Below, piece by piece: positions 3,363 to 60,724 of a stretch of DNA of 64,000 bases. Within the stretch, counting starts at the first letter, position 1, and every line of letters begins with the position of its first letter. The DNA lies in the NCBI GenBank assembly GCA_016195665.1, contig JACPZD010000001.1:62001-126000 (forward strand), read 5' to 3'. A model generated the notes under the pieces. It was not told the DNA's origin, ran no database searches, and saw nothing but the letters and a program-made list of their open reading frames with translations. Source of the stretch: Gammaproteobacteria bacterium (lineage in GTDB: Bacteria > Pseudomonadota > Gammaproteobacteria > SURF-13). Position numbers and translations under genes: made by a program.

Positions 3363-4403
3363 CTATTGATTCACTCTTTGAGGAGTCCCCAAGCCCAGCT
3401 TAGAAAGCGAGGTAGTCGCCTCGGCGGCCTCTGCGCTGTTCAGCATCGGCCCCAGCCGCACACGGTACCACGTGGCCGTATTGATGATCTCCACCGCCGT
3501 GCGTACCCGTGTCGCGATCCGATTCCGCAACTGCTCTGCGTTGGCGCGGCTCTTGAATGCGCCGACCTGCAAATAGATCCGGTCCGCAGGTTTCGATACA
3601 GGGACCGGCATAGGCGCAGGAGGGGAAATTTCCTTGACCTCCTCTTTGATGGGAGAAGCTTCCGCCTCGATCCCCACCGGCGGCTGGCTATCGGCGCTTG
3701 CGACCAGCGGCACGGGCGCCTGATCGGGCTCGACCGGAATTTCGTAAGGGGGCGATTCGCCCACTCTCGCAACCAGGGTGGGCAACGGCTCGCCGGGCTG
3801 AATCGCGCGCACCTCGACCAAGGCCGTGCCGGTGGGCAGAACGCCCAGCTTGCCGGCGGCGGCGTAAGAAAGATCTATGAGGCGCTCCTCGTGAAAAGGC
3901 CCGCGGTCATTGACGCGCACGACCAGATTGCGGCCGTTGTTCAGATTGGTCACCAGGACATAGCTCGGCAGCGGCAACGTCTTGTGCGCCGCCGTGACGC
4001 CATAAAGATCGTAGGGCTCGCCGCTCGAGGTGCGCCTGCCGTGGAATTTAGTGCCGTACCAGGAAGCGATCCCGCGCTCCACATAACCCGCACTGTTGCT
4101 CAAGGTATGGTAGAGGCGGCCATTAACCTCATAGTAAGGTGGATTCCCATATTTGCTGTAAGGCTCCATCTGCGGCTCAGGTTCCGGGATGGAATCAAAA
4201 TCAACCTGTTGCAGCGGCGCTCCATCTGTTTCGCCCCCTGCAGGCGGCGCTGGCAGGCGTCCCGTCTGGCGCGGCGTGGTGCCGCAGCCGGACACTACAA
4301 CAGTAACAAGCAGCAAGGAGCAAGCAACAACAAAAAGGTTGCACGTTGCACGTTGCACGTTGCACGTTGAAAAAATACTAATCATCCCCTTCTCACTTGT
4401 CAC
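3363..4403 (-). CDS. rlpA: Rare lipoprotein A RlpA (DPBB and SPOR domains)
   Basis: Septal peptidoglycan lytic transglycosylase acting on denuded glycan strands. Domain order is an N-terminal hydrophobic segment with lipobox VSGC (lipidated Cys40), a linker, a double-psi beta-barrel around residues 105-195 with RGIASWYGTKFHG and VRVNDRGPF, a Pro-rich linker, and a C-terminal SPOR domain (about 270-345, from DRIYLQVGAF). The start is uncertain: GTG 4403 overlaps the mltB stop, or ATG 4385. The pre-lipobox coding region is made of four tandem copies of a 7-bp unit, which gives the odd NVQRATC peptide. Copy number changes would shift the frame. Confidence 0.93.
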   Translation of the reverse strand: MTSEKGMISIFSTCNVQRATCNLFVVACSLLLVTVVVSGCGTTPRQTGRLPAPPAGGETDGAPLQQVDFDSIPEPEPQMEPYSKYGNPPYYEVNGRLYHTLSNSAGYVERGIASWYGTKFHGRRTSSGEPYDLYGVTAAHKTLPLPSYVLVTNLNNGRNLVVRVNDRGPFHEERLIDLSYAAAGKLGVLPTGTALVEVRAIQPGEPLPTLVARVGESPPYEIPVEPDQAPVPLVASADSQPPVGIEAEASPIKEEVKEISPPAPMPVPVSKPADRIYLQVGAFKSRANAEQLRNRIATRVRTAVEIINTATWYRVRLGPMLNSAEAAEATTSLSKLGLGTPQRVNQ

Positions 4404-4415
4404 TTGTCACTCGCA
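4339..4415. repeat. Heptamer-repeat element across the mltB/rlpA junction
   Basis: The left part is four perfect tandem copies of TTGCACG (4339-4366) and the right part is two copies of CTTGTCA (4396-4409) with a degenerate neighbour. The left part encodes the RlpA signal-sequence region. The right part encodes the last residues of MltB (RVTSDK) and, in another frame, the possible RlpA start. The 7-bp period matches other elements in this window at 16.3, 36.5, 41.05, 48.7, 52.9 and 53.25 kb. Confidence 0.8.
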
Positions 4416-58699: not shown

Positions 58700-59782
58700 G
58701 TGAAGCCCTCCATCCGCAGCAAACTCGAAAACCTCTCCGAGCGCCTGCAGGAAATCAGCGCGCTGCTCTCCGATCCCGCCATTCACCGCGATCAGGGCCG
58801 CTTCAGGGATTATTCCAAGGAATACGCGCAACTCAGTCCCGTGGTCGAATGCTTCCGTCGCTATCAGGCGACACTCGACCAGGTTGCCGAGGCCGAGGCC
58901 ATGCTGCGCGACGAGGACCCCGATCTGCGCGCCTTGGCGGAGGAAGAGATCAAATCGGCGCGCCGGCAACAGGAAAGTCTCGAACTGGAATTGCAAACGT
59001 TGCTGTTGCCCACCGATCCGCACGACGACAGCAATATCTTTCTGGAAATCCGCGCCGGCACCGGCGGCGACGAAGCGGCCCTGTTTGCGGGCGACTTGTC
59101 GCGCATGTACACGCGCTACGCCGAGACGCGCGGCTGGCAGGTTGAAATCATGAGCGTCAGTCACGGCGAACACGGCGGCTACAAGGAGATCATCCTGCGC
59201 GTCATCGGCCGCGGCGCTTATTCGCGTCTCAAATTCGAATCCGGCGGACATCGCGTGCAGCGTGTGCCGCAGACCGAGGCGCAAGGCCGCATCCACACCT
59301 CGAGTTGCACCGTGGCGGTGATGCCCGAAGTGGAAGAGATAGACGAGATCGCCATCAACCCGGCGGACTTGAAGGTGGATACCTTCCGTGCCTCGGGCGC
59401 CGGCGGCCAGCACGTCAACAAGACCGACTCGGCGATCCGCATCACGCATCTGCCCACCGGCACCGTGGTGGAGTGTCAGGACGAACGCTCGCAGCACAAG
59501 AATCGCGCACGCGCCATGTCGCTGTTACGGGCCAGAATGCTCGCCGCCGAGCGCGGCAAGCAACAAAGCGAGCAAGCCCAGTTGCGGCAAGGCCTGGTGG
59601 GCAGCGGCGACCGCTCCGACCGCATCCGCACCTATAATTTTCCGCAGGGCCGCGTCACCGATCACCGCATCAACTTGACGGTGTACCAGCTTGACGCCGT
59701 GCTGCAGGGCAATCTTGATCTGCTGATAAACCCGCTCGTCAGCGAACATCAGGCCGAGCAGTTGGCCGCGATTGCGCAATAA
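58700..59782 (+). CDS. prfA: Peptide chain release factor 1
   Basis: Terminates translation at UAA and UAG. GTG 58700 with AAGGA further upstream gives 360 residues, the family length. The GGQ motif (235-237, [20 protein letters not shown]) enters the peptidyl-transferase centre and is the PrmC methylation site. The N-terminal [19 protein letters not shown] is typical. The next gene, prmC, starts directly after the stop. Confidence 0.98.
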
Positions 59783-60724
59783 ATGGAAGTGCTGTCATCA
59801 AAAAACGCGACAGCGGTGTTGAAAAAGGCCATACGGCAACTGGCCGGTCTCGAACAACCCACGCTGGAGGCCGAAGTGCTGCTGGCTTACGTGCTGGGCT
59901 CGACGCGCAGCCGGTTGCTGAACCTGGCGGAACGAAAGTTGAGTGAAGATCAACTAATGCAGTTCAACCAGCTCCTCGAACGCCGCTTGCAGGGCGAGCC
60001 GGCCGCGTATCTCACCGGCTATCGGGAATTTTGGTCTCTCGATTTACAGGTTACGCCTGACGTATTGATTCCGCGTCCTGAAACAGAACGTTTGGTCGAG
60101 CTTGCACTGGAACGCATTCCTGAAAACGAATGTTGGCGCATCGCCGATCTCGGCACCGGATCGGGCGCGATTGCTCTCGCCATCGCGCGTGAACGGCCCT
60201 GTTGCCGGATCATTGCGACTGATATTTCTGAAGCCGCTTTAGAAGTCGCGAACGCCAACGCCGAGCGGTTGGCTATTCGCAATATCGAGTTTCGTTTAGG
60301 GGGCGGCGATTGGTTCGGTGTTTTGCAAGACGAGCAGTTTGACATGGTTGTCTCCAATCCGCCTTATGTCAGGAGTGATGATCCGCACCTGGAAGCATTG
60401 CGCTTTGAGCCACAGATCGCCTTAGTAGCCGGAGCGGATGGTTTGCAATCGCTGCGTGATGTTGCGACACAGGCGCGGCGACACTTTACTTTCCTCTCCC
60501 TCACCCCGCCGGCTTCGCCCCCCTCGCTCCGCTCTCCCCGGAGGGAGAGGGTGGCGAAGCCGGGTGAGGGGGGCGGCTGGTTATTGTTGGAACACGGCTA
60601 CGATCAAGGCTCCGAATTGCTGCAAATGCTTGCCGGTCTGGGCTATGAATCCGCACTGGATTATACGGACCTAGCCGGCCTTCCGCGTATTGCCGTCGCG
60701 CAGTGGAAAATCTCTAATGAATGA
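59783..60724 (+). CDS. prmC: Release factor glutamine methyltransferase PrmC with palindromic insert
   Basis: Methylates the GGQ glutamine of RF1 and RF2. It has 313 residues against about 277-290 usual. Motifs: TGYREFWSLDLQVTPDVLIP, RPETERLVELAL, DLGTGSGAIALAIA and the catalytic NPPY in VVSNPPYVRSDD. Near residues 237-265 the stretch LTPPASPPSLRSPRRERVAK with PGEG is encoded by an 85-bp inverted repeat and interrupts the normal RRHL...GGWLLLEHG block. The start abuts the prfA stop; the end overlaps moeB by 8 nt. Confidence 0.95.
   Translation: MEVLSSKNATAVLKKAIRQLAGLEQPTLEAEVLLAYVLGSTRSRLLNLAERKLSEDQLMQFNQLLERRLQGEPAAYLTGYREFWSLDLQVTPDVLIPRPETERLVELALERIPENECWRIADLGTGSGAIALAIARERPCCRIIATDISEAALEVANANAERLAIRNIEFRLGGGDWFGVLQDEQFDMVVSNPPYVRSDDPHLEALRFEPQIALVAGADGLQSLRDVATQARRHFTFLSLTPPASPPSLRSPRRERVAKPGEGGGWLLLEHGYDQGSELLQMLAGLGYESALDYTDLAGLPRIAVAQWKISNE
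60493..60577. repeat. 85-bp inverted repeat inserted in frame in prmC
   Basis: The arm CCCTCACCCCGCCGGCTTCG pairs with CGAAGCCGGGTGAGGG, with inner CTCTCC/GGAGAG-type pairs. It is read through in frame between the last helix and strand of the methyltransferase fold. Confidence 0.85.

Follow-up and report, generated by a model that had tools for sequence, protein, structure and literature searches.

What produces a family of palindromes whose arms are built from degenerate 7-bp units, when the unit itself changes from copy to copy? The question arises in a window of 64,000 nucleotides (bases 62001–126000 of contig C1) from a 2.38-Mb genome, in which the first-pass annotation had noticed such elements and attributed them to a generating mechanism, either slippage plus inversion or the copying of a template. 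Using Tandem Repeats Finder and an inverted-repeat search, followed by reading of the sequence, we recovered tandem heptamers at all eight places named (4.34, 16.3, 36.1, 36.5, 41.05, 48.7, 52.9 and 53.2 kb; Table 1). Inverted arms were confirmed at 16.3, 36.5, 41.05, 48.7 and 52.9 kb, and the hairpin folding of these five doublets far exceeded that of shuffled sequences (RNA-fold z −3.5 to −8.2). Other descriptions needed correction. The 4.34-kb element does consist of heptamers and is larger than was noted, with CAG...CTG ends around its central array; the element at 53.25 kb has tandem heptamers and is not self-complementary, and it did not fold (z −0.09). The feature at 60.5 kb, which had set the far coordinate of the family, is a palindrome of another class and drops out of it.

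Table 1. Heptamer elements of the window, with one palindrome that is not a member.
Element	Position	Strand	Context	Fold z and remarks
AG-phased doublet CAG-TAACAAG-CAGCAAG-GAGCAAG ... (GTTGCAC)4.6 ... CTCACTTGTCACTTGTCACTCGCAACTG	4301..4419	.		
CTAGGG-type inverted doublet	16291..16377	.	between yqeY and dnaG, both on − (Pfam YqeY, DnaG)	−3.5; 23-bp arms, complementarity 87%
Single GTGAGGC arm + GCCTTCGGC	36094..36123	.	in frame within leuS	
GTGAGGN inverted doublet	36491..36564	.	in frame, LeuRS editing domain (PF13603)	−7.3
GTGAGGN inverted doublet	41026..41094	.	phoH-ybeY junction (Pfam)	−4.0
AGAAAAG/ATACAAG inverted doublet	48688..48773	.	between ychF and tRNA-Met	−4.7
GTGAGG/GTGAAG inverted doublet	52888..52982	.	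downstream of prs	−8.2
Chimeric doublet: GTGAGG left arm, CTAGGG-type right arm	53229..53280	.		purine-first
C-first palindrome, non-member	60500..60577	.	inside prmC	without heptamers

Period 7 also stood out in a larger sample. In 346 kb of contig C1, which contains about 22 heptamer loci, a strict cut-off (15 of 18 matches) returned 20 tracts at lag 7, compared with 5 at lag 6, 1 at lag 8 and about 0.2 in fifth-order Markov simulated sequence. The annotation had staked the family on such an excess over periods 6 and 8, and the excess held. Lags 14 and 21 were elevated too, as harmonics of lag 7. At a looser cut-off (12 of 14 matches) the counts were 25, 17 and 2 for lags 7, 6 and 8, the rise at lag 6 presumably reflecting coding periodicity. 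No lag-7 tract was found in 198 kb of G026, a genome outside this family. The heptamer hairpins are real, and they are neither a product of chance nor a brand-new class; they belong with dispersed, exchangeable repeats that have been described chiefly in cyanobacteria.

Other structured features occur in the window. At the gathering score, the Rfam matches there were limited to a pair of tRNAs and one group I intron, so that the doublets match no known RNA family. The intron (RF00028, 92 bits) lies within an apparent tRNA-Ile(CAU) gene at 10617–10862 on the minus strand. Hairpins with repeated CGCAGAGGA/CGCGGAGGA/CGCCAAG units of 8–9 bp are found at 54911–54974, 57066–57134 and 58538–58658, and 16-mers of the CGCAGAGGA type rank among the commonest in the genome sample. 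A MITE-like palindrome, TTACTCAGGAGTC, is present at 18264–18317 and 56893–56947, with a copy of about 80% identity in G005, one of five same-family relatives (G001–G005) used below.

The heptamer elements follow a common plan: a CAG-type end, then three to six degenerate heptamers (approximately DRRHRAG) in a purine-first arm, a variable loop and an arm on the opposite strand. Nearly all units fit DRRHRAG once read in one phase; positions 6–7 of the unit profile are partly imposed, because the phase was chosen by maximizing AG. Among doublets with arms of at least 12 bases, the purine-rich arm was 5' in 42 of 42 from six same-family genomes and in 12 of 12 from other bacterial families. These 54 purine-first doublets (of 54) are not 54 independent cases, because copies share ancestry, but they come from several unit families and from several families of bacteria. 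The search was able to detect the opposite order: among its hits was a C-first palindrome of a different class, whose 9-base arms fell below the cut-off. The pattern CAG(NRRMNAG)3NRR was present in 47 of 369 gammaproteobacterial genomes with a patchy spread, and its reversed control had no match in the three family genomes richest in the pattern. One GTGAGG arm and one CCTCAC arm at L078:10000-10431 keep the usual order and are separated by about 350 bp, as though a longer insert lay between them.

Units had been described as locus-specific, which does not hold. GTGAGGN is common to dozens of loci in the same genome, and TTGTATC/TTTTCTC is found at three (C1:4888, C1:298848 and 48.7 kb of the window). 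Exact GTGAGGN triples numbered 77 in this genome, none in the five relatives, and 34 and 25 in genomes of two distant families (G045 and G089, respectively); a GTGAGGC array is present in G336. Other same-family genomes use AGTGGCG, AGAGAAA/ATACAAG, GGGAAAG and GGGCTAG. We infer that every lineage has its own small number of amplified unit families and that the locus-specific look is an effect of the small window.

The central claim, that the unit changes but the architecture does not, was borne out at orthologous sites. Between two genes that, from their translations, we take to be proA and nadD, all five relatives carry a doublet whose left boundary lies, in every case, at the stop codon of proA. 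The unit is of the AGAAAAG type in G004 and G005, GGGAAAG in G002 and TGGCGAG in G001 and G003, and the element lengths are 100, 100, 100 and 76, 76 bp. In the gap between ychF and tRNA-Met the boundaries are likewise the same, with GGGGAAA in G002, AGTGGCG types and a shared loop in G001 and G004, and AGAAAAG types in our genome and L091. Upstream of purH, a perfect TGGCGAG doublet in G005 corresponds to a TGAGGCG doublet with the same boundaries in our genome. One gene gap can thus show a constant architecture with different units across as many as five related species, beside sites that are empty.

Around proA-nadD, identity between G001 and G005 is mostly above 90%, yet unit and loop differ. 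Next to the element, G005 has bases in common with G004, and G001 with G003, in two sets (GTGCT..TCAG and CCGTGATAGG against GTGATCGG..TTAG and AATGAT); this pattern, with its few informative bases, would fit short-tract exchange between lineages. At some loci alleles seem to have crossed genera. The loops of G001 and G003 match over 17 bp as reverse complements, which suggests that the loop flips between the arms; it is nearly palindromic, and inversion is not certain.

Between G002 and G004, five pairs at proA-nadD have changed on both sides, and doublets often span the gap from a stop codon to the next start. Both observations would be expected of selected intercistronic RNA hairpins, acting as mRNA stabilizers or pause sites, with co-evolving arms and a secondary 7-bp period. 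We find this explanation highly doubtful: co-directional gaps are not enriched (22 of 28 compared with a 73% baseline, in gene-context counts that leave out G005), doublets also lie in frame inside leuS, where the G-U wobble pairs would be on the antisense strand, and many sites are empty in relatives. A role as transcription terminators is unsupported, as the genes on either side of most doublets are co-directional and closely spaced.

The annotation had set descent with the same sequence against presence or absence at orthologous loci, and comparison gave a mixed answer, with some sites empty and others holding a doublet of different units. LeuRS carries two in-frame insertions, which interrupt the alignment with its relatives at 243/271 and 393/411 (residue numbers). 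The first of these sites, filled here by the leuS doublet, is empty in G002–G005, and the single-arm leuS insertion is absent in G002, G003, G005 and G026. The phoH-ybeY doublet is absent in G001–G005 and the doublet downstream of prs in G002 and G004; further doublets are also missing in relatives. Hairpins of the heptamer kind can therefore sit in frame in an essential enzyme. Three other observations concern leuS. In G001 (L087), the codons in which our genome has the heptamer doublet contain a C-first palindrome, CCCTCTCCCGCAGCGGGAGAGGG; G026 has a similar peptide at this site; and the leuS reading frame of our genome (window 34621–37313, minus strand) is lost after ...LLTQGMVL, either because of misassembly or because the frameshift is genuine.

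The arms recur in many copies. The G005 proA-nadD element, used as a query in six genomes, gave 81, 77, 43, 34, 10 and 4 matches, and the G001 element gave 60, 36, 25, 19, 2 and 1. Many matches to the G005 query were exact over 25–37 bases, with unlike units in the same order, and exact multi-unit arm strings of this length are repeated at dozens of loci within and between genomes. GTGAGG arms of our genome were no more alike within a locus than between loci (similarity 0.682 compared with 0.663, permutation p 0.16). Outside the GTGAGG family, in sets that mix genomes and sub-families, arms of the same locus were more alike than those of different loci (p 0.0002 and 0.002). These comparisons use the locus-swap test alone, as a unit-permutation test is biased because arms were chosen for best pairing. 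Because ordered arm strings recur and GTGAGG arms are unstructured by locus, we favour dispersal of arms from a pool, rather than their generation separately at each locus.

The same results make slippage plus inversion doubtful as the generator. In that scheme, polymerase slippage would produce the array of heptamers locus by locus, and the inverted arm would come from snap-back copying. In its favour, unit numbers vary between loci, and arms of one locus are highly alike outside the GTGAGG family. According to work cited in PMC4679880, no other long simple repeats are as abundant as heptamers in most bacterial genomes, and slippage is a proposed source of them. We nevertheless consider local generation unlikely, given the multi-unit strings shared by dozens of loci and the pool-like GTGAGG arms. 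Snap-back from either strand should also yield C-first doublets, and every doublet counted was purine-first. The presence of mutS in our genome counts against slippage as well, and loss of mismatch repair was rejected for the same reason. SbcD, a palindrome nuclease, is absent throughout the family; its loss would be permissive at best, because most of 56 relatives are without it too.

Copying of a template by a reverse transcriptase, the other mechanism proposed at the outset, is also unlikely. Of the six family genomes, five (our own, G000, as well as G001, G002, G004 and G005) lacked RVT_1 (PF00078), which argues against diversity-generating retroelements (DGR), retrons, DRT and telomerase-like copying. 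A related possibility is that, at a DNA break, one purine-rich heptamer strand is added to each of the two 3' ends before these are joined. This would account together for the fixed polarity, the pooling of arms, the lack of conservation in the loops, the chimera at 53.2 kb and the occurrence of single arms. It is distinctly improbable, as our genome and four of the five relatives have no reverse transcriptase, no template RNA was identified, and the fixed boundaries at shared sites require a second process. Still bolder, and very improbable, is the idea of bacterial end-capping, in which the same purine-rich heptamer strand would be placed on both broken 3' ends ahead of joining and leave inverted scars of fixed polarity, with a lineage-specific unit like telomere repeats.

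REPIN/BIME doublets are dispersed inverted arms with a variable spacer, and those moved by a RAYT (Y1) transposase offer a known model for the elements described here. Our elements resemble them in having conserved arms, a variable spacer and single arms in addition to doublets, and Y1 transposase genes occur in our genome (nine) and in four of the five relatives (four in G001, two each in G002 and G003, and one in G004). We looked for heptamer arms beside two of the nine Y1 genes of our genome and found them at neither. The gene at C1:47407 (L063:7249-7860, C1:47.2–47.9 kb) is flanked by the GAATTC palindromes GCCGAATTCATTCGGC / TGCGAATGAATTCGCA, a classic REP-like arrangement, and that at C1:247813 has no frequent flanking repeat. 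G005, which is rich in doublets and 97% complete, had no Y1 match, and the heptamer arms, unlike REPIN/BIME arms, have no internal palindrome. A RAYT is thus rejected as the mover on the loci checked, and an origin of the REPIN/BIME type appears quite unlikely.

On balance, we lean towards one dispersed family of inverted doublets with arms drawn from a pool and later remodelled in place. Arms would be copied from the genome-wide pool into new sites by a transposition-like process and retained where tolerated, probably in short gaps between genes and in protein loops. The doublets may then be remodelled by unit slippage, by flipping of the loop that the arms enclose and by short-tract allelic exchange between lineages. 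Two observations run counter to this reading: loops are not conserved between loci, unlike those of typical MITEs, and the likeness of non-GTGAGG arms within a locus would follow from local copying too. We found no mobilizing enzyme, target duplication or very recent insertion, and the relatives are too divergent to fix insertion edges. The loci, the polarity rule and the unit families are offered as a basis for seeking the mobilizing or exchange mechanism.

Among known systems, the Rickettsia palindromic element has a sequence that is conserved throughout the element. The two leuS insertions, in frame and precisely absent in relatives, resemble it; conservation through the element does not extend to our doublets, in which the loops differ between loci.

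The elements had also been called something other than a standard described class, which is wrong in part. The closest known systems are cyanobacterial STRR hairpins (PMC2670836), the Nostoc trnL P6b stem (PMC4476775) and the paired sites of Geobacter (PMC2700814). In filamentous cyanobacteria, hairpin-capable short tandem repeats are not unusual and usually have 7-bp repeats; their function is unknown (PMC2670836). Our elements share with them degenerate tandem 7-bp units, a position between genes and, except at 53.2 kb, the capacity to form hairpins. They differ in their gammaproteobacterial host (the closest named ychF matches are Gammaproteobacteria, and the host is not a filamentous cyanobacterium), in their fixed purine-first polarity and in the replacement of units at orthologous sites across genera. 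The P6b stem of the Nostoc trnL group I intron has arms of TDNGATT or NNTGAGT with repeated motif replacement, so that the class of a 7-nt motif switches at one locus without following phylogeny (PMC4476775); it is one intron locus, compared with a genome-wide set and more unit families here. In Geobacter metallireducens, paired multicopy sites of classes 1–4 are described as tandem hepta- or octanucleotides on opposite strands, at variable distance and in many copies; their units are different, they are read as global-regulator sites (PMC2700814), and they are not known to show unit replacement across species.

Two further heptamer families are more distant. The TAACTGA heptamers of Beggiatoaceae are patchily distributed, and, as here, one heptamer is found in distant lineages and missing in closer ones; they are direct repeats just upstream of start codons and almost never inverted (PMC4679880). 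The GGGNATC repeats of Xanthomonas and Nostoc are likewise an enriched heptamer family, with lengths that vary between related strains, but have been studied as G-quadruplex direct repeats (PMC4692102). Bacterial heptamer repeats are a long-standing observation that began with cyanobacteria, and the present family makes their spread and the differences between their units testable. What sets it apart from known heptamer hairpins is its polarity, the replacement of units at fixed boundaries across genera and its breadth among Gammaproteobacteria.
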